Notes: a model not told the origin generated them from the sequence alone. DNA of 34,473 bases from Candidatus Cloacimonadota bacterium (GCA_021736135.1 JAIPGO010000147.1:1-34473), one strand, 5' to 3'; numbered from the stretch's first letter, positions 3 to 21,700 are shown. Program-made: numbers and translations.

Positions 3-3000
3 CGAGAGAGTTTCCCGCGCCCGTGGGCAGTAGTTTACTATACCAATAGTACAATAGCCTACTGCGAAGTCACTATTGATGGTTTACCAGCCGAAACCGG
101 TGATGAGGTGGGAGCTTTTGTAGGTAGCGAGTGCCGGGCAATAGGAGCCGTAGTAGTTAATAATGGACAGGCTATCAGCACTATGAACATCCAGGGAGAG
201 ACTTCTGAGACGGTGAACTTTGCCGTATATGATAGCAGTGCCGATGTAGTATTTGATGTAAGTTACAGCACTATAACCAATCCGGGTAGTGATCTTGGTT
301 ATCCCCCGAATCTTCTTCCTATTGCAGCAGCCAGTATTGTAATACCCGATTTGATGAACTGCTTTAGCGGAGAGAGCTTTGATGTTCTATTCCCGATAGG
401 CGAATATGAAGTAACCCTGACGGTAACAGATGATGATGGAGCCACGGCGACAGAGACAACCATGGTGACTATTATAGAGTATAATGAAGCTCCCGTAGCC
501 GATGCCGGCGGACCTTATGAAGAGATAGCTGATGCAGAAACGGAACTGGGTACAGTCACTCTTGACGGTAGCGGATCTTATGATGTGGATGGAGAGATTG
601 TGAGCTGGGAATGGTGCTGGCTTGGAGAAGGTGCCGTATATTATTCCCGTCCGTGGACACCGGTAATCTACAGTAACAGTACCGTATGTTATGGCAAGGT
701 CAAGATAGATGGAGAACCTGCTTATGATGATGATGAAGTGGGAGCATTTATCGGAGACGAATGCCGTGGAGTTGGCTATGTTCAGCGCACCGGTACTGAA
801 GCCATAGTGACAATGAACATCCAGGGTGAAGAGCCCGAGATAGTTCACTTTGCCGTCTATGATATCAGCGAAGGTATTGTATGCACTGTATCCTACTATA
901 CTCAGACTAACCCCGGAGGTGATCTCGGTTATCCACCGAATGAACTTCCGATCTATGCCATATCAGGGACAAGTCCTGTTCCATCAATCTTCCCGCGTCC
1001 CTGGAATGTGGTTTACTACACTAACAGTACAGTAGCTTATTGCGATGTTCGGATTGACAACATTCCTGCTTCTGTGAATGACGAAATTGGTGCTTTTGTT
1101 GATGAAGAATGTAGAGCGGTAGGTAACATAGAATCTCTAGAGGGCTTATCAATATCAACAATTAATATCCAGGGTGAATCAACAGAATCAGTCCACTTTG
1201 CCGTTTGGGATGCAAGCTCAGGAACAGTTTTGAGTGTTGCATACACAACCTTAACTTCACCCGGAAATGATCTTGGGTATCCTCCCGACCTGCTACCTAT
1301 TTATGCAGTTAGTGAAAGACAATTAATTACAAATGTTATGGATAGAATTGAATTCCCACGCCCGTGGAGTGTTGTATATTATACTAATAGCACAGTAGCT
1401 TACTGTGAAGTAACTATTGATGATGAACCCGCAGCCGGGGGAGATGAAGTGGGAGCTTTTGTTGCTAATGAATGCAGAGGTATTGGAGCGGTTGTGGTCA
1501 ATAGGACACAATCAATTTGCACGATCAATATTCAGGGAGAAGTATCTGAAACAGTTCATTTTGCTGTATATGATGCAAGTGCAGATGAGGTTTTAACTGT
1601 CAGCTATTCAACTCAGTCTAATCCCGGTAATGATATCGGCTATCCACCGAATTTATTACCAATTGCTGCGGAAACAATCTCCATTCCAGAATATGAAAAC
1701 TGTTACACAGGAGAAATCCTGGAAATATTATTCCCAATTGGTGAATATGAATTAACTTTAACCGTAACTGATGATGATGGAGCTACAGCTTCTGAAACAA
1801 CAACAGTGACTATTATTGAATATAATGAAGGTCCAATCGCAGATGCTGACGGTCCTTACGAAACTGATGCGGAATATAATAATTTAGGTCAGATAACCCT
1901 TAATGGTAGTGGTTCATATGACATTGACGGAGAAATCACTAGCTGGGAGTGGTGCTGGTCTGGAGGTGGTTCAGAATATTATCCAAGACCATGGACGCCT
2001 GTTATTTATAGTAATAGTACTATAGCTTATGGAAGAGTAACAATTGATGGAGAACTTGCTTATGATAATGATGAAGTGGGCTCCTTTATTGCAGGTGAAT
2101 GTCGTGGAGTAGGTTATGTTCAAAGAGTAGGAAACGACGCATTTGTCACCATGAACATTCAGGGAGAATCTGTTGAAATTGTACATTTTGCTGTATACGA
2201 TATCAGCGAAGATGAGTTATGTCAGGTCTCATATTATACTTATACAAATCCAGGATTTGACATTGGGTATCCACCAGATAATCTGCCCATAGATGCCTTC
2301 ACATCAGGAAATCAACCTTCAGTGACTACATTCCCAAGACCCTGGAATGTAGTATACTATACAAACAGCACAGTAGCTTATGGTGAAGTAACAATTGATG
2401 GAGTTCCCGCTGACATCAATGATGAAGTGGGTGCATTTGTTAATGAAGAGTGCAGAGCTATTGGGATGGTTGTTGTGGATGAAACGCAATCAATCGTAAC
2501 TATGAATATCCAGGGTGAAACAACAGAGCTTGTGAGTTTTGCAGTCTGGGATGCAAGTATCGATGAGGTAATTAGTGTTGCCTTTACAACACTTACTTCA
2601 CCAGGTGGTGACATTGGGTATCCACCCAATCTCTTACCTATTGCCGCATTTAGTGGATCAGGTAGAGAAATATTCCCTCGTCCCTGGATATCTGTAACCT
2701 ATACAAATAGTACTGTTGCCTATGGTCTTGTAACAATTGATGGAGTTCCTGGTGCCTCAGGAGATGAAGTAGGAGCTTTTGTTAATGGTGAATGTCGGGG
2801 TATTGGATATGTTACCGATGCCACACGTGAATCCGTTGTCTCTATCAATATTCAGGGTGAATCTGTTGAAATTGTCCATTTTGCTGTGTGGGATGCCAGT
2901 GAAGATATTGTCCTTCAGGTCAATTACTCTACATTGACAAATCCTGGCGGTGATATCGGTTATCCACCGAATCTACTGCCTATAGCAGCAACTAGTGAAA

Positions 3001-6000
3001 TCATTCATGAACTGGAAAATTGCGTATATGGTGAATCCGTAGATGTATTCTTCCCGGTTGGAGTATACAATGTAACCTTAACGGTAACTGATGACGATGG
3101 CGCTACAGCAACAGATCAAACAACAGTAACCGTAAACACATATAATTATCCGCCAGTTGCTGATGGAAATGGCCCCTATGAAGAAATAGCTGAAGCTTCC
3201 GGAGTAGCAGGGATTATGCTTGATGGATCAGGATCTTATGATCTTGATGGTACCATTGTTAACTATGAATGGTGCTGGCAAGGTAGTGGTGGAATGATCT
3301 TCCCGCGTCCCTGGAATGTAGTTAATTATACAAATAGTACTGTTGCTTATGCCAGGGTTACTATTGATGGCGCAACTGCAACTGTGAGAGATGAAGTTGG
3401 TGCTTTTGTCGGTGGAGAATGCCGTGGAGTTGGATTAATTATCCTCAGTGAAGGTAACTCATATTCCACTTTCAACATTCAGGGAGAAGAAATTGAGTCG
3501 GTTAACTTTGCCGTCTATGAATATAGCGAAAACCAGGTATGGTCTGTTGCATATTATACAACAACAAATCCTGGAAATGATATCGGTTATCCTCCTGATT
3601 TTCTACCTATCAATGCCTCTACAACAGGGATAAACGCCAGTAACGTTTTCCCAAGACCGTGGGCTGTTGTTAACTATACAAATAGTACGGTTGCTTATGG
3701 TAGGGTAACTATTGATGGAGCATCTGCTTCAGCGGGTGACCAGGTAGGAGCCTTTGTGGGAGATGAATGTCGTAGTATTGGAAATGTTACTATAAACAGA
3801 ACAGAAGCAGTAGTAACAATGAATATTCAGGGAGAAACTGTGGAAACCGTATTCTTTGCTGTCTGGGATTCGAGCTCCGATATGGTTTACAATGTTTCGT
3901 ATTCAACCCTGACTAATCCAGGTGGAGATATTGGATATCCTCCTAACCTTATTCCTATTGCTGCTAGCTCTATTAGAGGAGGAATTTCCAAAGATGTAAG
4001 CAGAATAACATCGTTCCCGAGGCCTTGGATTGTAGAGAATTATACCAATAGTACTGTTGCTTATTGCCGTGTAACTATTGATGGTGAAAATGCTGTTGAT
4101 CTTGATGAAGTTGCCGCCTTTGTAGGCAACGAATGCCGAGGTATAGCCGGAATAGTTATTACAGGTAATGAATCAATTGCTACAATGAATATTCAGGGAG
4201 AATCTGTGGAAACAGTTAGTTTTGCTGTTTACGATGCCAGTGAAGATGAAGTGGTAAGCGTGAGTTATATTACACAAACTTCTCCAGGAAATGATATTGG
4301 CTATCCACCTAATCTCCTGCCAATAGCTGCCTATAGAAATCAAATCAGCAATTGTGTTTATGGTGAAACTCCACTTGTTTATTTCCCGGTAGGAACATAT
4401 AATGTTACTCTCACTGTTACTGATGATAGAGGTGCATCTGATACTGATGTCACCTTAGTAACTGTAATTGAATATAATAATCTGCCTGTCGCCAATGCTG
4501 GGGGACCCTACTTTGAAATGGCTCCTGTTGAAACAGGTTATGCCACGGTTACATTAGATGGTTCGGGTTCTTATGATTTAGATGGCGAAATTATCACCTA
4601 TGAATGGTGCTGGGGGGGCTCTTCAGGAGCCGGTACAATATTCCCCAGACCCTGGGATGTCGTCTATTATACTAATACTACGGTTGCTTATGGTTTAGTT
4701 ACTATAGATGGTCAGCCGGCTTTACCGGGAGATGAAGTTGGTGCTTTTGTAAATAATGAATGTCGGGGAATAGGTACTGTTGTTGATGCAACCAGAAATA
4801 GCATCGTTACAATGAATATTCAGGGTGAAACGGTTGAAAATGTTTACTTTGCTGTCTGGGATGCCAGCGAGAACACAGTTCTTGGTGTAAATTACTCAAC
4901 ACAAACCAATCCAGGTAATGATATTGGTTACCCACCCAATCTACTGCCTATTAATGCAATCTCTTCAGTCAGATTCAGGGATTCATTCCCCAGACCCTGG
5001 ATTGTTGTTAATTATACCAATACAACGGTTGCTTATGGTAATGTAACCATTGACGGCAATCCCGCCGCAACAGGTGACCAGGTCGGTGCTTTCGTTAATA
5101 ATGAGTGCCGGGGTGTTGGCAATGTTACCGATCAGACAAGGCAATCCATTGTAACGTTAAACATACAGGGAGAAACTGTAGAACTTGTACATTTTGCAGT
5201 ATATGATCTGAGCGAAGATCAGGTATTATCCGTGGGATATACTACTTACTCAAATCCCGGAAATGACATTGGTTATCCTCCTGATCTGTTGCCTATTGCC
5301 GCTTATTCCGAAACATTTGAAGAAATCTGTATTTATGGTATTTATCCGAGTTTCGATTTCACTCCTGGTGAATATGAAGTTACTTTGACAGTAACAGATA
5401 ATGATGGAGCAACCGACTCAGACGTTACTACTGTGACCGTTGAAATGGAAAATATTGCTCCAGTTGCAAACGCAGGTGAGGATTACTTCGAAATTGCAGA
5501 AAATGGATATGCCACAGTTACTCTTGATGGTTCTGATTCTTATGATTCTGATGGTGATATTATTAGCTATTACTGGAATTGGGAAGGCGGTGGCGTCGTG
5601 ATATTCCCCAGACCCTGGGTGCCTGTTGTTTATACAAACAGTACTATTGCTTATGGAATAGTCACTATCGATGGACAACCAGCAGGAACTGGCGATCAGG
5701 TAGCTGCATTTGTTGGAAATGAATGTCGCGGAGTGGCAAATGTAATTCTTGATAACAGTTCTAGTAGAGGTTTATTAAATTCCGGTTCAAGGAATAAAAC
5801 CAGATCAAGAGAACTTATTTCCAGAGTTACTCTTAACATTCAGGGCGAAGAGGTTGAAACTGTTCAGTTCGCAGTATGGGATTATAGTTTAAATGAGGTT
5901 TATGCTGTTGAGAACACAACCACTACTAATCCTGGGGGAGATATCGGTTATCCACCTAATGAAATTAATATTGATGCCAACTCGTTTGCCCGCAGTAGAA

Positions 6001-9000
6001 TATCTGCTACAGGTGTTACTGTCGATGTCGTTTTCCCCGTTGGTATTTATCTGGTAGATCTTACTGTAACTGATAATGTGGGAGCAACAGATACTGATGA
6101 AGCCCGGGTGACAGTTGGAACTCAGGGAATTCCCCCATACATATTCCCGAAACCCTGGAACATTGTTACTTATTCAAACAGTACCGTAGCTTATGGAATT
6201 GTCACAATAGATGCAGAACCAGCAGCAATTGGTGATGAAGTAGGGGCATTTGTTGGTAATGAATGTCGAGCAGTAGCAAGCGTTTATCATATTGATTCCA
6301 GACGTCAAAGAGAGATTTCTGCTCATGTAACAATGAACATTCAGGGTGAAGTTGTGGAACTTATTCAATTTGCAGTCTGGGATGCCAGCGAAGATGAAGT
6401 TCTCAGTGTTTCCTTTACAACATATTCTGATCCAGGAAATGATATAGGGTATCCCCCTGATGAATTACCAATAGCAGCTACCACTTATCAGCACCCAGTG
6501 ATTAGTGATTATCCCTGGTATGTTAATCCGGACGCCTTTGATGATTATACTACGGCAGTTTGCACCGTATTTATTGACGGAGAACCTGCTGCATCTGGTG
6601 ATATAGTTGGAGCATTCGATGTTAATGGAATCCCTCGAGGTGAAGGTACGGTTATAAACAACGGCAACGCTGCAAATACAACCTTCTATATTTATGGTAA
6701 TTATCCCGAACCAATATATTTTGCAGTCTGGGATATCAGCGAACAATTCCTATGCTATGTAGCCGAATTGACCTATTCTGCTCCAGGAAACACAATTTAC
6801 ATTACAATAAATGCCTGGACAAATATGCTTCCTATCGCCGTAACTGGTGGACCTTATGTTGCCCAGGCAGATCTTAGCGGATTTGCCGCAGTTGAACTTA
6901 ATGGCTCCGCTTCTTATGATCCAGATGGCGTTATTAGTTCATACCTTTGGACAGAAAATGACATTATTCTCTCTGAAACTCCAATATTTACGTTTAACTT
7001 CGCTGTTGGAAATCATACTCTTGTTCTTACTGTTACTGATGATGACGGTGGTGTTGGCATTGCTTCTACATCTGTGGAGATAATATCTATGGAGAATACT
7101 CCTCCCATTGCCGTTGGTGATAACTATGCAACTCAGGAAGATGTTATCTTAAATATTGCTGCAGAAAATGGTGTACTGATTAATGATACTGATACTGTTG
7201 CCGGAGGCTGGCCAGATGCACTGACAGCACAACTAACGGATAATGTAATCCATGGAACATTGTTATTGAATTCCGATGGTTCCTTTATCTACACTCCTGC
7301 TGAGAATTATTTCGGACAGGATAGATTCCGCTATCAAGCTTTTGATGGTTTGGATTACTCAAATGAAGTGCTCGTTCTGATTAATATTTCACCAATAAAT
7401 GATATGCCGGTAGCTGATGCTGATGGTCCTTATCCTGGGCAGGCGGATGCAACCGAAATGGCTGAGATTACGCTTGATGGCTCAGCCTCTTATGATCCAG
7501 ATGGCCAGATCATTACTTATCTCTGGACATGGAACGATACCATAAGCATTGAAGGGATTACAGCAACTGCCCTATTCCCTGTTGGACCGACGACGGTTAC
7601 TTTGACTGTAACAGATAATGACGGTGCAACAGACACGGATTCAACCCTGGTTGGCGTGGCTGATTATAATAATACAGCACCGGTAGCTTATCCTGATATG
7701 TTTACTGTCCTTGAAGATGAAACACTAATTGTAAGTTCTGCCGAAGGTCTCCTGGTGAATGATACAGATGATGGCTACCCAGGTAGAATTGTAGCCATTC
7801 TGGCTGATTCTACCAGTTCCGGTATTCTTGATTATAATCAAAATGACTGGGATGGTGCCTTTAGTTATACACCTGGAGTGAACTTCTTTGGTATTGATAT
7901 GTTCACTTATTTCCTCTTCGATGGCCAGACCTATTCTAATGAGGTCTCTGTAACCATTACTATAGAATCAGTTAATGATCTGCCTGTGGCTGATGCTGGT
8001 GGGATATACCAGGCAACTGCAAATCAGATGGGATTTGCTTCTGTTGTATTGAATGCCGGTAATAGTACTGATATTGACGGTTCAATCGTATTTTATCAGT
8101 GGACATGGAATAACAATGTTGCCACTGGTATGGTAGTCAATGCTTCCTTCCCAATTGGTACGACAACTGTCACTCTTACCGTTATAGATGATCAGGGAGG
8201 AACCGATACAGACACTGCTCTGGTTGGAGTTGCTCAGTATAATAACCTGTTCCCTGTTGCCTACAATGATAGTTACATCATTGATGAAGATAATGAACTA
8301 ATTGTTTCATTTGATGCGGGTATTCTTACTAACGATACTGATGATGGATATCCTCAAGTTTTAACGGCACTTCTTGATGAGGACGTTGAAAATGGAACTC
8401 TGAGTTTGAATGAAGATGGTTCTTTCACTTACATGCCTGATTTAAATTTCAGTGGAACTGATTTCTTCAGTTATATTGCTTTCGATGGTCAGGTTAATTC
8501 AGATATTGCCACAGTTAGCATTACTGTCACAGAAATTAATGACCTGCCCATTGCAGATGCCGGTGGACCTTATAATGGAGTTGCTGATAATACAGATACA
8601 GCGTTAATTACTCTTAATGCCAGTTCCAGTTATGACCCGGATGGCTCAATCGTTGAGTATTTATGGAACTGGGATGGCAATTCTGCCACGGGTATTGAGA
8701 TAACTGCTGCCTTCCCGATAGGTACAACTCAGGTTCTCCTTACAGTTACAGATGATGCGGGTGCAGTGGATACCGATCTGGCTCTGGTTGGAGTTGCTGA
8801 TTATACAAATGTGATGCCCATAGTAGTTGAAGATTATTATAATGTTGATGAAGATCAGCTTCTTGTTGTCGATGCTGTTTACGGTGTTCTGGCTAATGAT
8901 TCTGATGACGATTATCCAGAGCCCCTGCAGGCAGTTCTTATTGATTCAACGACAATGGGAGTGCTCTCATTTAATCCGGATGGATCTTTTACTTATCAGC

Positions 9001-11489
9001 CGGTATTAAACTACTTCGGACAGGATTTCTTCACTTATTCTGCCTTTGATGGACAATATTATTCAGGTATTGTGTCTGTCTACATAACAATTAATTCAGT
9101 TAATGATGATCCTGTTGCAGAGGCTGATGGACCTTACAATGCCGTTGCAGACACATCTGATACTGCATTGGTTACTCTTAATGGCAGCGGTTCTTATGAT
9201 TTGGATGGTACCATAATCAGCTGGACTTGGAGCTGGGATTCACGCCTTGCTTCCTTTACTCAAAGAAGCAGAGAAATTTTAGAAGGCGAATATGTTACTT
9301 TCAACTTCCCCACAGGTACTACTCCGGTCACACTGACTGTAACAGACAACGAAGGGGGCGTTAGCAGTGACGTAACTGTAGTTAGTGTCGCTTCATACTT
9401 GAATCAAACTCCAGTAGCTGTAATGGATACTTATTCTGTTCTTGAAGATGATATTCTCATTGTATCATCTTATGAGGGTGTTTTATCAAATGATACTGAT
9501 GACTTTTATCCTGAACCGCTGACAGCAGTGCTTTTTGATGGCCCCTATTTTGGAAATCTGAATCTGCAGCCTTCCGGTGCCTTTATATATACTCCAAATC
9601 CCGGATATGTGGGTTTTGATTACTTCACTTATATGGCTTATGATGGTGAAGTGAACTCACCAGCGGTGATTGTCTCTATTGAAGTTATCAATGTCAATGA
9701 TGCCCCTGTAATTGTATTGCCAGATGCCTTCACCTTTGCCGAAGATACTCAACTGATAGTAGATTTAACTCCTTATATCTATGATGCTGATGGAGATGAT
9801 CTTCTGATCAATGTCATGGGTAATATGCAGGTGAATGTGGTCATCAATGATTATTATGCTACCTTTACTGCTGCCGAAAACTGGTTCGGCAGTGAGGTGA
9901 TTTTCTTCGAAGTTGATGATCAGATTAACAGACTTGTAGCAATTGACAGCGTTATTGTGGAAGTTACGCCGGTAAATGATAGTCCGGTTCTACTCCAGGA
10001 AATTCCTGACTACTATGTCATTGAAAACTTCTTGGCTTTCGATATCGATCTGCAACTTTATTTTGATGATGTAGATAGCGAGCTCAGTTACATCGTGTTC
10101 AATGATATGCAGCAGGTTAACGCATCTGTAAACAATGAAATTCTAACAATTTCATCGGTTACCGGCTGGTTCGGTGATGCTCAGGTTATTGTTAATGCCG
10201 GAGATGGCATTTATAGAGCTTCGGTTTCAGATACATTTATGGTTTATGTAGCCATGGGTGATCAGCAGGAACTTGATCTGATTCAGAACTGGAACTGGAT
10301 CTCCTTCTATGTACATCCAGAAGATGTAAGCTTAAATGGTGTATTTGATCCACTTGGTGATAATGTCAACACGGTTAAATATCAAACACAATCTGCTCAG
10401 TATATTCCGGAATGGAATGACTGGATGGGTGATCTGGAGAATGTGGCTGATGGTCAAGGATATCTGGTTCAAATGAATAACAGTTTTGAAAACTTCCTGG
10501 TTAGCGGAGCAGCTATTCCTGCTTCCACACCTATTGAAATGAATGATGACTGGAACTGGATCGCTTATTATCCTCATACAGCAGACAGCCTTAACAGTGC
10601 TCTCGCCAGTATTCTGGATGATGTTGAAACGGTGAAAGACCAGCAGCATTCTGCTGATTATTATCTGGAATGGGATCTCTGGTTGGGTGATCTGGAATAT
10701 ATGTATCCGGGAATTGGTTATAAGATCAAGATGAGAAATCCTGCTACTCTGGTTTATCCTCAACTTGTTTCTGCAGCTCCTCAACAGCAACGTAAGATCA
10801 TAAATGATAATGGTCAAAGTAACAGGCACTGGGATGTAATACCCGGTACTGAAAATAATATGATAGTAATTTCTGAATTAAGAACTACTACAGGTAATAT
10901 TCTTCCCCTGAACAATATTAACTGTGGTATATTTGATATTAATGGAAATTGTCGCAGTAATGGAATATGGCAGTATGTGCCTCAACTCGATAGAGGGTTC
11001 TGGTACTTTACAGTTGTAGGAAACCTGGATAATGAACCACTGGTAATAGTTTATTCAGATCCGGAAGGAAATGAATTTACCAGTGATTATGAGTTTGTGT
11101 TCCAGAGTGATTCTCGATTGGGTGATCCTTATAATCCGATTGAAGTTATATTCTCTATTACTGAGGGTGATGAAGATCTGGATATTCCTCTTTCTTATAC
11201 ATTAGATCAAAATTATCCTAACCCATTCAATCTCAATTCAAGTCGTGGGGGTTACCTGACGACGATCAAATATGGTTTACCTGAAAGTGGACCTGTAACT
11301 GTTTCTATCTATAATATCAAAGGACAAAAAGTGTGTGATTTGGTTGATGAAGTTCAGGATGCCGGTTATCACAGTGTAACCTGGAATGGTAAAGATGCTA
11401 ATGATAATAAAATATCAGCAGGATTATATCTCTATCATTTGCAGGCAGTCCAAACTTCGATTTATCGTAAAATGATAATTATTAAGTAG
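3..11489 (+). CDS. Giant secreted repeat protein with PKD-nested PW/ECR modules and C-terminal sorting domain (5' partial)
   Basis: The reading frame is open to the left edge and codes for module sequence before the first in-frame start-like codon (GTG 108, the Val of a DEVGAF motif), so the true start lies upstream. At least 3828 aa are visible. Order: PW/ECR modules interleaved with split PKD domains (12-6830); five intact PKD domains alternating with tandem-95 cadherin-like repeats (about 6830-9705), then two further tandem-95 repeats (to 10260); a duplicated WNWIS domain (10270-10760); an ECR-like module with CGIFD and NCR motifs (10820-11170); and a sorting-type C-terminus with NYPNPFN and a closing KMIIIK (about 11205-11489). 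PKD and tandem-95 domains are known from extracellular adhesins and carbohydrate-associated proteins, and C-termini of this type direct type IX secretion in Bacteroidota. Role inferred: giant surface adhesin or scaffold. No enzymatic domain is visible. It is the first of four co-directional genes. Confidence 0.9.
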   Translation, partial: RESFPRPWAVVYYTNSTIAYCEVTIDGLPAETGDEVGAFVGSECRAIGAVVVNNGQAISTMNIQGETSETVNFAVYDSSADVVFDVSYSTITNPGSDLGYPPNLLPIAAASIVIPDLMNCFSGESFDVLFPIGEYEVTLTVTDDDGATATETTMVTIIEYNEAPVADAGGPYEEIADAETELGTVTLDGSGSYDVDGEIVSWEWCWLGEGAVYYSRPWTPVIYSNSTVCYGKVKIDGEPAYDDDEVGAFIGDECRGVGYVQRTGTEAIVTMNIQGEEPEIVHFAVYDISEGIVCTVSYYTQTNPGGDLGYPPNELPIYAISGTSPVPSIFPRPWNVVYYTNSTVAYCDVRIDNIPASVNDEIGAFVDEECRAVGNIESLEGLSISTINIQGESTESVHFAVWDASSGTVLSVAYTTLTSPGNDLGYPPDLLPIYAVSERQLITNVMDRIEFPRPWSVVYYTNSTVAYCEVTIDDEPAAGGDEVGAFVANECRGIGAVVVNRTQSICTINIQGEVSETVHFAVYDASADEVLTVSYSTQSNPGNDIGYPPNLLPIAAETISIPEYENCYTGEILEILFPIGEYELTLTVTDDDGATASETTTVTIIEYNEGPIADADGPYETDAEYNNLGQITLNGSGSYDIDGEITSWEWCWSGGGSEYYPRPWTPVIYSNSTIAYGRVTIDGELAYDNDEVGSFIAGECRGVGYVQRVGNDAFVTMNIQGESVEIVHFAVYDISEDELCQVSYYTYTNPGFDIGYPPDNLPIDAFTSGNQPSVTTFPRPWNVVYYTNSTVAYGEVTIDGVPADINDEVGAFVNEECRAIGMVVVDETQSIVTMNIQGETTELVSFAVWDASIDEVISVAFTTLTSPGGDIGYPPNLLPIAAFSGSGREIFPRPWISVTYTNSTVAYGLVTIDGVPGASGDEVGAFVNGECRGIGYVTDATRESVVSINIQGESVEIVHFAVWDASEDIVLQVNYSTLTNPGGDIGYPPNLLPIAATSEIIHELENCVYGESVDVFFPVGVYNVTLTVTDDDGATATDQTTVTVNTYNYPPVADGNGPYEEIAEASGVAGIMLDGSGSYDLDGTIVNYEWCWQGSGGMIFPRPWNVVNYTNSTVAYARVTIDGATATVRDEVGAFVGGECRGVGLIILSEGNSYSTFNIQGEEIESVNFAVYEYSENQVWSVAYYTTTNPGNDIGYPPDFLPINASTTGINASNVFPRPWAVVNYTNSTVAYGRVTIDGASASAGDQVGAFVGDECRSIGNVTINRTEAVVTMNIQGETVETVFFAVWDSSSDMVYNVSYSTLTNPGGDIGYPPNLIPIAASSIRGGISKDVSRITSFPRPWIVENYTNSTVAYCRVTIDGENAVDLDEVAAFVGNECRGIAGIVITGNESIATMNIQGESVETVSFAVYDASEDEVVSVSYITQTSPGNDIGYPPNLLPIAAYRNQISNCVYGETPLVYFPVGTYNVTLTVTDDRGASDTDVTLVTVIEYNNLPVANAGGPYFEMAPVETGYATVTLDGSGSYDLDGEIITYEWCWGGSSGAGTIFPRPWDVVYYTNTTVAYGLVTIDGQPALPGDEVGAFVNNECRGIGTVVDATRNSIVTMNIQGETVENVYFAVWDASENTVLGVNYSTQTNPGNDIGYPPNLLPINAISSVRFRDSFPRPWIVVNYTNTTVAYGNVTIDGNPAATGDQVGAFVNNECRGVGNVTDQTRQSIVTLNIQGETVELVHFAVYDLSEDQVLSVGYTTYSNPGNDIGYPPDLLPIAAYSETFEEICIYGIYPSFDFTPGEYEVTLTVTDNDGATDSDVTTVTVEMENIAPVANAGEDYFEIAENGYATVTLDGSDSYDSDGDIISYYWNWEGGGVVIFPRPWVPVVYTNSTIAYGIVTIDGQPAGTGDQVAAFVGNECRGVANVILDNSSSRGLLNSGSRNKTRSRELISRVTLNIQGEEVETVQFAVWDYSLNEVYAVENTTTTNPGGDIGYPPNEINIDANSFARSRISATGVTVDVVFPVGIYLVDLTVTDNVGATDTDEARVTVGTQGIPPYIFPKPWNIVTYSNSTVAYGIVTIDAEPAAIGDEVGAFVGNECRAVASVYHIDSRRQREISAHVTMNIQGEVVELIQFAVWDASEDEVLSVSFTTYSDPGNDIGYPPDELPIAATTYQHPVISDYPWYVNPDAFDDYTTAVCTVFIDGEPAASGDIVGAFDVNGIPRGEGTVINNGNAANTTFYIYGNYPEPIYFAVWDISEQFLCYVAELTYSAPGNTIYITINAWTNMLPIAVTGGPYVAQADLSGFAAVELNGSASYDPDGVISSYLWTENDIILSETPIFTFNFAVGNHTLVLTVTDDDGGVGIASTSVEIISMENTPPIAVGDNYATQEDVILNIAAENGVLINDTDTVAGGWPDALTAQLTDNVIHGTLLLNSDGSFIYTPAENYFGQDRFRYQAFDGLDYSNEVLVLINISPINDMPVADADGPYPGQADATEMAEITLDGSASYDPDGQIITYLWTWNDTISIEGITATALFPVGPTTVTLTVTDNDGATDTDSTLVGVADYNNTAPVAYPDMFTVLEDETLIVSSAEGLLVNDTDDGYPGRIVAILADSTSSGILDYNQNDWDGAFSYTPGVNFFGIDMFTYFLFDGQTYSNEVSVTITIESVNDLPVADAGGIYQATANQMGFASVVLNAGNSTDIDGSIVFYQWTWNNNVATGMVVNASFPIGTTTVTLTVIDDQGGTDTDTALVGVAQYNNLFPVAYNDSYIIDEDNELIVSFDAGILTNDTDDGYPQVLTALLDEDVENGTLSLNEDGSFTYMPDLNFSGTDFFSYIAFDGQVNSDIATVSITVTEINDLPIADAGGPYNGVADNTDTALITLNASSSYDPDGSIVEYLWNWDGNSATGIEITAAFPIGTTQVLLTVTDDAGAVDTDLALVGVADYTNVMPIVVEDYYNVDEDQLLVVDAVYGVLANDSDDDYPEPLQAVLIDSTTMGVLSFNPDGSFTYQPVLNYFGQDFFTYSAFDGQYYSGIVSVYITINSVNDDPVAEADGPYNAVADTSDTALVTLNGSGSYDLDGTIISWTWSWDSRLASFTQRSREILEGEYVTFNFPTGTTPVTLTVTDNEGGVSSDVTVVSVASYLNQTPVAVMDTYSVLEDDILIVSSYEGVLSNDTDDFYPEPLTAVLFDGPYFGNLNLQPSGAFIYTPNPGYVGFDYFTYMAYDGEVNSPAVIVSIEVINVNDAPVIVLPDAFTFAEDTQLIVDLTPYIYDADGDDLLINVMGNMQVNVVINDYYATFTAAENWFGSEVIFFEVDDQINRLVAIDSVIVEVTPVNDSPVLLQEIPDYYVIENFLAFDIDLQLYFDDVDSELSYIVFNDMQQVNASVNNEILTISSVTGWFGDAQVIVNAGDGIYRASVSDTFMVYVAMGDQQELDLIQNWNWISFYVHPEDVSLNGVFDPLGDNVNTVKYQTQSAQYIPEWNDWMGDLENVADGQGYLVQMNNSFENFLVSGAAIPASTPIEMNDDWNWIAYYPHTADSLNSALASILDDVETVKDQQHSADYYLEWDLWLGDLEYMYPGIGYKIKMRNPATLVYPQLVSAAPQQQRKIINDNGQSNRHWDVIPGTENNMIVISELRTTTGNILPLNNINCGIFDINGNCRSNGIWQYVPQLDRGFWYFTVVGNLDNEPLVIVYSDPEGNEFTSDYEFVFQSDSRLGDPYNPIEVIFSITEGDEDLDIPLSYTLDQNYPNPFNLNSSRGGYLTTIKYGLPESGPVTVSIYNIKGQKVCDLVDEVQDAGYHSVTWNGKDANDNKISAGLYLYHLQAVQTSIYRKMIIIK
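12..6830 (+). repeat. Array of 15 PW/ECR modules interleaved with split PKD domains
   Basis: Each module starts with FPRPW (or a variant) and carries YTNSTVAY, DEVGAFV, ECR, MNIQGE, FAVWDAS and GYPPNLLPI. FPRPW-type starts lie at 12, 642, 990, 1353, 1980, 2331, 2673, 3300, 3648, 4014, 4641, 4986, 5604, 6144 and 6510 (the last degenerate). Adjacent modules are 342-366 nt apart. Where PKD sequence intervenes the step is 618-630 nt (627 three times). The intervening sequence is the C-terminal half of one PKD (FPIGEYEVTLTVTDDDGAT) followed by the N-terminal half of the next (VADAGGPY, LDGSGSYDVDG, WEWCW). The modules therefore sit inside PKD domains. I do not recognise the PW/ECR module as a named family. 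Confidence 0.9.
6830..10260 (+). repeat. Alternating intact PKD and tandem-95 (cadherin-like) repeats
   Basis: Intact PKD domains begin near 6830, 7405, 7980, 8545 and 9106 (GGPY, LNGSASYDPDG, LWTW, VTLTVTDNDGATDTD). Each is followed by a repeat of about 100 aa with a DEDxxL start, GVLxNDTDD, GSFxYxPxxNYFGxDxF and FDGxxYS. This is the VCBS/tandem-95 type seen in giant surface proteins. The PKD-plus-repeat period is about 561-575 nt. The last two repeats (about 9706-10260) have no PKD between them and match the two subtypes that dominate the next two genes. The acidic DxDxDxL motifs resemble cadherin calcium sites; calcium binding is inferred. Confidence 0.85.
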
Positions 11490-11560: not shown

Positions 11561-14500
11561 ATGAAGATGAAGAAAAGCCTTGTATTTGTTTTTATGTTTT
11601 CCCTGCTAGTAAGTTTGCAGGCTGTTGCACCAGATTGGGAGGTTATTCCTGGTACACAATATAGTCTGCAAATGTATTCTCAAGTGGATTATCTGGGTGA
11701 TTTTTTCACAAACGATAATCCAGATAATATCGTAGCAGCATTTGGTCCCGGCGGTGAAACAGACTGTCGCTCAATTGCTTTCTGGAATGAGTATAATGAA
11801 TTCCAGCTTTGGTATATGACTATTGTAAGTAATGCTGCTGATTCTTTATCAGAAGTGATTTCATTTAAAATCTATGATGCGGCCATGGATCAGGTTCTTG
11901 ATTGCCGCGAATCTATCCTCTTCCAGGATAATGTTGTTATCGGTTCCTTCGACGATACTTTCCTGCTTACTATTCCTTATGTTATTGATGATTTGTATGG
12001 CACCTATGAGGATTCTCTCCTGATTATTCAGCTTGAATCCGGAGTTCTTATTAATGATTATATCTCTCAGGAATATATCGATGAATTCTGGGTTGTGCTT
12101 AACCAGGATGTCTCTCATGGTGTACTTAATTTCAATAGTGATGGTTCCTTTGATTACATGCCGACTCTGAATTATTTTGGCAGTGACTTCTTTGAATATT
12201 ATGCCACTGATGGAGTATATGTTACATCCAATGCTATTGTTGAAATACAGATACAACCAGTAAATGATCCTCCAAATATTGATCTGCCTGATGAAGGTTT
12301 TCAGTTCCCTGAAGACACGATATATCAGGTTGATTTTACACCCTATATCTCAGATGTTGATAATGCTGTATTAACCTTGACTTATAGTGGTAATAATTAT
12401 ATCCAGATCACTGTTTACGGATATTTTGTCACCTTTACTCCGGAAGCTGACTTTAACGGTACTGAATACATTCAATTTACAATTAACGATAATACTGCCC
12501 GGGCAATTGATTCTGAAACCATTCCTGTAACAGTGACTCCCATAAATGATCCACCAACCCTTGATAGTCCAATTGCTGATTTCTCATTTAATGAAGATCA
12601 GGTTGATAATCATATAAACCTTAATGAAGTATTTACAGATATTGATGGTGATTTCCTGTATTTTAATGTTCTGGATAATATCAATCTCAATGTGTTCATT
12701 GATAGTTATGGTTTAGTTACTATTTCTTCTAATCAACCGAACTGGAATGGTTCTGAAACTATAATTTTCTCCGCTGCAGATATGGAATACACCGTCTTTG
12801 ATACGGTTACCGTTACAGTTCTGCCAGTAAATGATCCTCCTTATATCATTACTGAGCTTCCTGATCTTGAACTTGTGGAAGATTTCGAAGATATCTTGGT
12901 AAATCTTGATGAGCATTTTGATGATATTGATGATGACGAACTTTATTATTCTGCCCAGTTCAATAATGATCATGTCCTTATAGGTATTGCTCAAAATATG
13001 ATGACGATCTATTCTGTCCTGAATTGGACTGGCATTACTCAGGTTGTAATATCTGCTCAGGATGATTTCAATATCAGATATACTGTCAGGGATACTTTTT
13101 TAATTACTGTCACTGGAGTTAACGATCCGCCCTTTGTTTTAACTCCCTTACCGGATACACAGATTCAGGAAGATGCAACTGCCATTCAGAGAAACCTCGA
13201 CAATTATTTTGATGATTACGATGATCCTATTCTTAATTATTCAGTAGAATTTGTGGATACTGAAATGACTGCCTGGGTTGAATATAATATCCTTTATTTC
13301 CATCCTGTTGCTGACTGGAATGGAGTTTCTATCATCACTGTAACAGCTTCTGATAATTATAACTATGTTTCGGATTCTTTCAATGTGACTGTTTTAGCAG
13401 TCAATGACGCTCCTATTGTATATATGGAAATACCTGATATGACCCTGGAGGAGAACTTCCCACCCTTCGATGTGAATCTTTATGACCATTTTGCTGATGT
13501 TGACAGCGAAAATCTGATCTTTACTTATTCTCTTAATGTTCAACCAAGTGTTATTGTCAGCATTACTGAGGAAATAATGACCATTTCATCTGTAGCCCAA
13601 TGGAACGGTTCCGTAGATGTAACCGTAACTGCTCAGGATGAAACTGGTGCTATTAGATTAACTGTCAGTGATGTTTTCAATATCAGTGTTGAACCTGTTA
13701 ATAATTCACCCTATCTGATCACTCCTTTTACGGATTTTAATGTTTCAGAAGATTTTGGCTCATTTGATGTTGATCTCACTGAATACTTCACTGATCCGGA
13801 AAATGATCCGCTTACTTATACTCTTGTTTATGATGAATATCAGATCTATGCTGTAGTTAACGGAGATATTCTGACTATAAGCTCTGTATTCAACTGGAAT
13901 GGAACTGCTCCGGTTACCATATATGCTTCAGATGAAGTGTTGGGGAATGATCCTGCTATGGATAGTTTCAACATCATAGTCCAGCCGGTCAATGATCCGC
14001 CTTATATAACCGTTCCTATTGATGATTATTATGTCCTGGAAGATTTTGATCCTATTGTTATTGATCTTAACCAGCACTTTGCTGATTATGACGATATCCT
14101 GAACTTCGCAGTTGATTATGACGCAGATGTAATTCAGGCTTCAATATCTATGGGCTTTTTGACAATTTACCCCAATCTTAATGTCTTTGGAGACACAGAG
14201 GTTCTCGTCAATGCCGGTGATGGTCATAGAGTTCAAATATACGATGCATTCTGGATTTATATTGCTCCGGTTAATGATCCGCCTGAAATTATGCTGCCGG
14301 ACTCTTTCGAGTTTTATGAAGATACATCTCTGGTATTGGATTTTGCTGATTATATAGAAGATATTGATAGTGAAACGCTGATTCTGACTGCTGAAGGTAA
14401 TACCAACGTCCTGATTGATATTAATGGTTTAACGGTTACTTTCACTAATGTATTGAACTGGAATGGCTCAGAAGTGGTCACATTCCACGTCTATGATGGT

Positions 14501-18736: not shown

Positions 18737-18775
18737 ATGAAATTAAAAGAAGAAATATATGGAGGTACGGGATGA
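18737..18775 (+). CDS. Possible 12-codon leader ORF overlapping the start of giant gene 3
   Basis: ATG at 18737 opens a frame for MKLKEEIYGGTG whose TGA stop overlaps the gene 3 start in an ATGA arrangement (18772-18775). It has a plausible ribosome site (AAGGA, 18724-18728), and the GGAGG of gene 3 lies inside it. This geometry would allow translational coupling. It may be chance; no peptide function is proposed. Confidence 0.25.
   Translation: MKLKEEIYGGTG
18761..18765 (+). promoter_or_regulatory. Ribosome binding site of giant gene 3
   Basis: GGAGG lies 6 nt before the ATG at 18772, which is followed by a clear signal peptide. It supports this start. Confidence 0.7.
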
Positions 18776-21700
18776 ATAAACAAAAACTGATAATTTTATC
18801 CTTTGTTTTATTTGTCGCTTGTTTGCTCTTTGCCGATCCACCTGACTGGACACCTATGATTGGTAATCAGTATAATATGCAGGTATACGCTGAAGTCACA
18901 CTCTTCGAGCAACCTTTTACTAATGAAAATCCTGGTAATATCCTGGCTGCTTTCGGTCCCGGTGGTGAGCAGGATTGTCGGGCAATTGCTTTCTGGGATC
19001 AAGTAGGTCCTTATGCTATGTGGTATCTTACCATTCGAAGTAATGCCAGCGCCATTGAAATGGAACCTATTAATTTCTTGATTTATGATGCTGCTGCTGA
19101 TCAAATCTATGACACAGTGGGTGAGTTTCAGATTTACTTTGCTGATAATTCTGTGATTGGGTCTATTTATGATCCATATCAGCTTTCTGCTCCTGCAAAT
19201 CTGCCGCCGGTTGCAGTTACGGATCTATATCAGACCGATGAAGATATTTACCTGCAGGTTGATGCATTGCAGGGAGTTTTATCAAACGACTATGATCCGG
19301 AAGGTCTTGAACTCACGGCAGTTCTTGTCGATCAGACTCAGCATGGATCTCTGGAATTTTTTACTGATGGCTCCTTCAATTATCTGCCGGGATTTGACTA
19401 TTATGGTGCAGATATGTTTTCTTATCAGGCTTTTGATGGGGTATTATATAGTGATATCACTATTGTAAATATCACGATAAATCCAGTTAATGATCCACCT
19501 CGGTTCCAGTTCCCTCCCCTGGGATTCAGCTTCAATGAAGATGAAGACCTGATTGAAAATTTCTCTAACTGGATTTCTGACCCGGAAAATGATCCTATTA
19601 TCAATCTCACTGCTTCCGTAACCAACTATATTATTCTCGATATTGCCGGTATGGTTGTACAGTTTACTGCTCCCCTGAACTGGTTTGGGGAAGAGACCGT
19701 TACCTTTACCGCGACCGACAGCAATGGTGATTCCGCTTCCGAAGATGTTCTGGTTACTGTTATTTCGGTTAATGATCCTCCGGTTATTGATATCCCTTAT
19801 GATCAGTTCACAATGGAAGAAGACGATGTGCAGATCCTTGATCTTTCATTATTTATCTCTGATATTGATAATCAGGAATTGCTGCTTAGTGTTTTTGATA
19901 ATGATAATATTTCTGTTTCCGTTGATGGTTTCAGTGTTACTCTTATCCCGAATGAAAACTGGTTTGGCTCCGAAACTTTGAATTTCGTTGTTTCGGATGA
20001 TGTAACCAGGCTTACTGATAATGACTTCGTCGAGATCATTGTTCAGCCTGTCAATGACCCACCTGTGATCAATATTCCCGAAGATGAATATACTTTCCTG
20101 GAAGACGAAAGTCTTCTACTTGATCTTTCGGAATATATCAGCGACGTCGATGATACAATGCTGGATATCACTTATTCCGGTTATGAATATCTTATCTTTG
20201 AGGATTTAAGTCCTACAGTATTTTACATTACTGCTCCTCTTAACTGGTTTGGCAGTGAATTAATTACTTTCACGGTCATAGATACTGCCGGTCTGGAAGC
20301 CTCAGATGATGTCTTAATTACCGTGATTCCCGTTCCTGATCCTCCAGTTATAATGCTGCCTGACAGTTTCACGCTTGAAGAAGATTCCTTATTAATTGTT
20401 GATTTCGGGCTGGAAGGATACGTCTATGATGTTGATAGTGAAATACTCTCCCTAAGTAGCAATGGCAGCAACGTTGTGGTGAATATCACAGGTTTAAATG
20501 TGGAATTCATCCCTCTGCCGGACTGGAACGGTACCGAAACGATTACCTTTACTGTTTATGATGAGACCTTACAGGCTCAGGATGATGTTGATATCATTGT
20601 TACTCCGGTAAATGATGCCCCCCTTATTGATATTGAAGACTCCTATTCATTCCAGGAAGATGAAATTCTGCAGGTCGATTTTTCACAATATATTACTGAC
20701 GTTGACCTGGATGAGCTTACTTTGACTGCTGCCGGTAATATGAATATTCTTGTTGATATTGAACTACTGCAGGTTAGTTTCTCTGCTGTGCAGGATTGGT
20801 TTGGTTCTGAGATCATTACTTTTACAGTCAATGATAATCAGGGTAGAGCCATTGCCTCCGATTCTACGGAAGTTATTGTTACTCCGGCTAATGATGAACC
20901 GGTATTTATTCTTCCTAATGAAATATCTCTCTATGAAGACATCAATCTGACAGTAGATTTCGCTCAGTACATTACTGACGACAGCAGCTTTCTGGCACTC
21001 TCGGCAGGACCTGCAGTTAATCTTATGATCAATATTGATAGTCTCCTGGTTACTTTCATTCCTAATTCTAACTGGAATGGCGTGGAAAATATCAGTTTTA
21101 CTGTATTTGACGGTGAATTCTATGTTCCGGATGATGTTCTGATTAATGTTATTCCAGTCAATGATCCACCTCAAATTAATGTTCCGCTGGAATTCGTCTT
21201 CAATCCTAATCAAGTATATAATTACAATTTCCAGAATTTCGTCTTTGATCTGGATAGCAGCACTCTCTCTCTATCAGTAACAGGGAACCAGAATATTGAT
21301 ATCAGTATTTCAAATCTGATGGTTACTTTTACCACGGGTGACTGGCTGGGTGTGGAAACTGTTATCTTCACCGTTGATGATGGCACCGCTCGAGCTACTG
21401 CCTTTGACCAGATGGATCTTATTGTTACAGACGATACGCTTATGCCCGTGATCTATCTGCCGGTATCATTTACTTTCAACGAAGATAGCGCACGCAGTAT
21501 CGATTTTAACCCGTATATATATAATGATTCTCAAATCCAGGTCTATCTTTCTGCTTCAGGAAATGAGAATGTAATTGTAGAAATTGATACTTTAACTAAT
21601 TTTGTAAATTTATCTGCGCTTCCCAACTGGTTCGGTACAGAAGAGATTACTTTTACTATCCATGCTCCCGGATATGATTATTACAATTCTGATCAGACAA

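Follow-up and report, generated by a model that had tools for sequence, protein, structure and literature searches.

The window analysed here, a stretch of 34,473 nt, is a complete contig (C29) of a Candidatus Cloacimonadota genome (G000; 4.1 Mb, 98% complete). It opens with P0001 (nt 3–11489), a protein of 3828 aa whose N-terminus is missing at the contig end and in which residue i corresponds to nt 3i. An N-terminal region made up of modules and PKD halves is followed by five intact PKDs that alternate with Big_9/cadherin-like domains, and then by a T9SS type A sorting domain. The Pfam profile PKD_4 matches P0001 at 1.5e-64. SprA, the T9SS translocon, is found in the same genome (TIGR04189, above cut-off); with a C-terminal sorting domain and SprA encoded in the genome, P0001 has the features of a T9SS cargo protein. 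Short Arg-rich loop stretches lie at nt ~5760–5830, ~6300–6320 and ~9250–9290 and at the C-terminal NYPNPFN motif near nt 11240. The stretches read SSRGLLNSGSRNKTRSREL, DSRRQREIS, TQRSREILEG and NLNSSRGGYL, with mixed Arg codons, and the positions of the first three are common to orthologues (e.g. SRDRNRES). Downstream, P0002 and P0003 open with an AAFGPGGExDCRxIA domain (nt 11561–12000 and 18772–19200) that is similar to the module family, and a domain like it in L055 is a weak match of the module HMM.

HMMs made from the window's own PKD halves and modules located all features of the N-terminal array (Table 1). Its repeating pattern is a C-half, an N-half and one or more modules, with successive inserts of 3, 3, 3, 2 and 1 modules. 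The array holds six C-halves; the partner N-half of C0 would sit upstream of the contig end. An earlier note, made from the DNA sequence alone, had proposed that these PKDs are split after their WxW strand by one to three modules, and that four of the split PKDs carry a Cys in both halves while the fifth and the five intact PKDs have none. The HMMs confirm the coordinates and motifs behind this description, and the Cys distribution is as it had been described. A mobile or DNA-level cassette was also considered and rejected: synonymous sites show no conservation at the module starts and boundaries, which argues for a design at the protein level rather than a DNA element, and the window holds no Rfam or tRNA feature.

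Table 1. Features of the split PKD array and of the C-terminal part of P0001, and inserts at a second PKD loop in other ORFs. Residues are start positions in P0001 unless an ORF is named.
Feature	Window position (nt)	Strand	Residue(s)	Basis and remarks
C0, PKD C-half	357..485	+	119	HMM match; MNC (MNCFSGE...), Cys120
N1, PKD N-half	492..620	+	164	HMM; PKD_4 positions 3–39; ends WEWCW, Cys205
Insert 1, three PW/ECR modules	642..1670 (642–959, 990–1307, 1353–1670)	+	214, 330, 451	Module HMM
C1, C-half, closes N1	1695..1826	+	565	HMM; PKD_4 positions 60–85; ENC, Cys567
N2, N-half	1833..1958	+	611	HMM; ends WEWCW, Cys651
Insert 2, three modules	1980..2990 (1980–2297, 2331–2648, 2673–2990)	+	660, 777, 891	HMM
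C2, C-half, closes N2	3015..3146	+	1005	HMM; ENC, Cys1007
N3, N-half	3153..3278	+	1051	HMM; ends YEWCW, Cys1091
Insert 3, three modules	3300..4331 (3300–3617, 3648–3965, 4014–4331)	+	1100, 1216, 1338	HMM
C3, C-half, closes N3	4347..4478	+	1449	HMM; SNC, Cys1451
N4, N-half	4485..4613	+	1495	HMM; strands in AF2 model; ends YEWCW, Cys1536
Insert 4, two modules	4641..5303 (4641–4958, 4986–5303)	+	1547, 1662	HMM
C4, C-half, closes N4	5322..5453	+	1774	HMM; strands in AF2 model; EIC, Cys1776
N5, N-half	5460..5582	+	1820	HMM; ends YYWNW, no Cys
Insert 5, one module	5604..5978	+	1868	HMM
C5, C-half, closes N5, ends nested array	5997..6128	+	1999	HMM; RISATG, no Cys
Module outside any PKD (6144–6479) and divergent module (6513–6800)	6144..6800	+		HMM
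Five intact PKDs with alternating Big_9 domains	6831..9410 (PKD starts 6831, 7407, 7983, 8547, 9111)	+	2277, 2469, 2661, 2849, 3037	No Cys at either position
T9SS type A sorting domain, C-terminus	11214..11480	+		TIGR04183, 25.4 bits (cut-off 23)
Second-site insert			741–1160 (ORF of L012)	
Second-site insert			2249–2400 (ORF of L059)	
Second-site insert			223–450 (ORF of L013)	
Second-site insert			832–1040 (ORF of L052)	
Second-site insert			1037–1164 (ORF of L058)	Sequence pattern

The inserted module spans about 106 aa and is marked by the near-invariant residues W5, Y10, T14, Y17, D31, E40-C41-R42, G62, F70, P91 and G92. No convincing sequence match to it was found in Pfam, NCBIfam or the PDB. 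AF2 predicts it to be all-beta (second module of insert 4 modelled alone, pLDDT 96.3). The best Foldseek matches of this model are CBM20 starch-binding domains (e.g. PDB 1cqy), which are likewise all-beta and of similar length; the match is too weak to assign (E 0.018, TM ~0.37–0.47, ~10% identity), and no Pfam CBM profile matched. The predicted resemblance to CBM20 may serve as a weak lead to carbohydrate binding, and no more. Modules also occur free-standing or in tandem in many other proteins, so the module does not need the PKD; this and the confident model of a single copy are what is expected of an independent domain. Among 125 Cloacimonadota genomes, 40 match at E <= 1e-10, mostly over the module part of the profile that includes it, and the module is a widespread Cloacimonadota domain family without a Pfam or NCBIfam entry. 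The family (100–106 aa, 'VGAFVxxECRG ... NIQG ... GYPPNLLPI') has 187 matches in the window together with loci L009–L018 and L045–L064. Among 181 distinct modules, 175 retain the ECR Cys, although 58 of the 181 possess just a single Cys; the secreted protein thus carries a thiol that is conserved and apparently without a partner. A clamp within the modules like that proposed for the PKDs was rejected, as the ECR Cys (175/181) and the AYC Cys (80/181) show no association (p = 1).

The relatives in the genome collection searched belong to Candidatus Cloacimonadota and Ca. Stygibacter. Nested units were found in four ORFs from three genomes: P0001 itself, L045 in G024, and L046 and L047 in G026. 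The ORF of L045 (5438 aa) carries inserts of 4, 4, 4, 3, 3, 3, 2 and 1 modules and that of L046 (3569 aa) inserts of 3, 3, 2 and 1, while L047 holds two complete nested units (2 and 3 modules) and one cut by the contig end. The recurrence of the same design in two further genomes, and once more in another ORF of G026, places the architecture far beyond chance. Full-span matches of an N-half plus module are confined to these three genomes among the matches listed in order- and phylum-level searches, and a wider taxonomic search returned Cloacimonadota plus one Verrucomicrobiaceae match confined to the PKD part. The earlier note had suggested looking for other PKD-with-insert proteins to see whether the Cys go together; in those of G024 and G026, they co-occur throughout.

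Two adjoining 560-aa blocks of L045 (residues 654–1213 and 1214–1773), each a nested PKD with four modules, are 98.8% identical, which points to a recent block duplication. Most first modules have their nearest relative among the first modules of other units. On these two grounds, the arrays would have grown by duplication of whole blocks (halves together with modules), with the number of modules changing inside the loops.

Other proteins encoded in these genomes have K319L-like PKDs that are broken by a related module at another position, between DPDG and the next strand. L012 has two such copies, and L013, L052 and L059 also belong here; L058 shares the start pattern of these inserts. In one example, SYDPDG is followed by a module and then by DLEFLWSAPAG, versus SYDPDGQDLDYEWIVPDG in an intact copy. 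The halves at this second site match PKD_4 positions 3–34 and K319L-like positions 33–84. Since this is a different PKD loop, insertion of this type of module into PKD loops happened at two sites.

The N-halves of the array match positions 3–42 of PKD_4 and the C-halves positions 58–85, i.e. complementary parts of the profile. In the nested reading, an N-half is completed by the C-half that follows its modules. Alternatively, the contiguous C-half and N-half could form one domain, a circularly permuted PKD, which would turn the protein into a plain linear string with modules. The contiguity of these two halves agrees with permutation, and most Cys pairs fit it too, but the array ends do not. 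The array of L047 opens on an N-half that has a module but no C-half in front of it. Those of the window, L045 and L046 finish on a C-half, and a module comes next; no completing half was found at any HMM score at the visible ends of these four arrays. Nesting leaves no orphan half at such an end and permutation leaves one at each, so the balanced, bracket-like order favours nesting. The order N-half, module(s), C-half is that of a domain insertion (A1-B-A2), while neither a C5 without a following N-half (in three genomes) nor an array that starts with an N-half (L047) is expected of permuted PKDs. Besides, the halves run in unpermuted order in the intact PKDs of these proteins.

Structure prediction points the same way. 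An AF2 construct, C3-N4-M-M-C4-N5 (14 aligned rows), put the pairings in competition, and its choice is informative because both permuted pairings were available. Strands were predicted in N4 (59–63, 70–73 and 86–93) and in C4 (331–334, 339–342, 345–355 and 360–371), whereas the outer halves were left unformed: N5 had no strand of three residues, and C3 formed its last hairpin only. The predicted N4–C4 pairing is deduced from the set of strands that appear, rather than from contacts or distances, in a model with pLDDT 77 and pTM 0.45 (two of the five models at 54–57). A contiguous C-half and N-half folding as one domain, which the earlier note had named as the observation that would speak against nesting, was not seen. 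A Foldseek search with the whole construct was uninformative: all it returned were tandem beta-sandwich chains such as Aureispira GhpA, at rmsd values in the tens of angstroms. The construct also bears on a domain-swapped chain, in which an N-half would pair with the C-half of a neighbouring molecule or of a farther repeat and thereby link subunits. The near identity of some repeats would suit such a swap, but the predicted strand pattern is satisfied within one chain, and the 6–9 aa linkers of single-module units suit local closure; we consider swapping highly improbable.

The earlier note had let the pairing of Cys decide for nesting. It does favour nesting, but not decisively, since a permutant would also bring both Cys side by side; only units at a boundary between PKDs with and without Cys discriminate. 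One orthologous boundary (C4/N5, in three genomes) and one in L047 (C4988/N5031) are of this kind, and permutation would leave one unpaired Cys in each of these four units. Taken with the array ends and the AF2 strands, nesting is the likely arrangement, and we regard a permuted PKD as improbable.

Within the nested arrangement, the two Cys are strictly coupled. Both are present in 14 of the 19 complete nested pairs and both absent in the other five; a homologue keeping one Cys alone, which the earlier note would have counted against nesting, is not among them (0/19). With the 27 intact PKDs included, the two positions agree in all 46 PKDs (both Cys in 14, neither in 32). On a tree built from the PKD halves with the Cys columns left out, the Cys label changes three times; the 2–3 independent contrasts all agree and are too few for significance. 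Cys92 and Cys332 of the AF2 construct (Cys1536 and Cys1776 of P0001) are placed in the strands adjoining the insert.

The Cys pair marks the base of most loops; formation of a disulfide there is doubtful, and we hold the odds of such a bond to be roughly even. Searches for DsbA, DsbB, VKOR and Thioredoxin_4 found none of these known oxidative folding enzymes in the 98%-complete genome of the window, while the same searches were positive in control genomes, and DsbA and VKOR were also not found in five relatives. Their absence speaks against a regular disulfide. It is an even call whether nesting is real and the Cys pair nevertheless stays reduced, maintained for reasons of packing or simply through the duplication of blocks; the small number of independent Cys changes would agree with this, as would the single-Cys modules, which indicate that P0001 tolerates unpaired Cys. 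On the other hand, the two PKD Cys co-occur without exception while those of the modules are free to vary, and the bond could be formed by other oxidants or by enzymes not recognised as such. Of the earlier proposal that PKDs are nested with a disulfide clamp, the nesting has good support from bracket order, Cys matching, AF2 strands and PKD_4 halves, and the clamp is unproven.

The hosts resemble known PKDs (PKD_4, PF18911; K319L-like_PKD, PF22352) in the complementary profile matches of their halves, and intact copies lie in P0001 itself; they differ in being broken after about profile position 42 by one to four foreign, larger domains, repeated in tandem. Domain insertion of the A1-B-A2 type occurs in about 20% of multidomain proteins, and the insert is the smaller of the two domains in 77% of these events, with medians of 115 residues for inserts and 199 for hosts (PMC13114784). 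As in such cases, the host is completed after the inserted domain. In contrast, inserts of ~115–475 aa here occupy a host of ~90 aa, the longest being roughly five times as long as the host; a single module is already larger than the host, and it is the complete nested unit that repeats in tandem. The text of that survey makes no mention of PKD (PMC13114784), and no description of a split or nested PKD was found in the open-licence literature searched. The claim that no repeat of this design has been described thus holds for that literature, although the insertion of one domain into another is in itself widespread (PMC13114784). The biological context closest to this one is a scaffoldin-like giant surface protein of Ca. 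Stygibacter with cohesin and CBM2/CBM3 domains (PMC8542988). It, too, is a giant Cloacimonadota surface protein with repeated domains and a C-terminal domain for surface attachment; nested PKDs are not described there (PMC8542988).

We consider it very probable that nested PKDs, T9SS export, block growth and multivalent display belong to one explanation, a spine with side arms. P0001 would be a giant, T9SS-exported surface protein of a Cloacimonadota bacterium, in which each N-terminal PKD acts as a host, interrupted in the hairpin loop between its WxW strand and the next strand. The loop would carry one to three (elsewhere up to four) copies of the 106-aa all-beta module before the PKD is completed. 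Directly consecutive PKDs would make up the spine, and the modules, leaving and re-entering at one hairpin, would form looped side arms without lengthening the string. Such an array could grow both by copying whole blocks and by changing the number of modules within a loop. Its most likely role would be the multivalent display of a binding module in adhesion or substrate attachment, with the Cys pair on the strands adjoining the insert probably tightening the base of the loop, either through a disulfide or by the packing of two thiols. A more far-reaching version, which we think rather unlikely, is a comb-like surface fibre with loops, in which Ig-like spine domains are opened for one to four larger, undescribed binding modules and a covalent Cys staple holds the base of every loop; this design would have arisen at least twice in one bacterial family, in different PKD loops.

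As a rule, giant surface proteins of bacteria are interpreted as beads on a straight string. If PKDs do open up to take in arrays larger than themselves, the length and the branching of such proteins can evolve separately, and the nested design escapes automated annotation, to which weak partial PKDs alone are visible.
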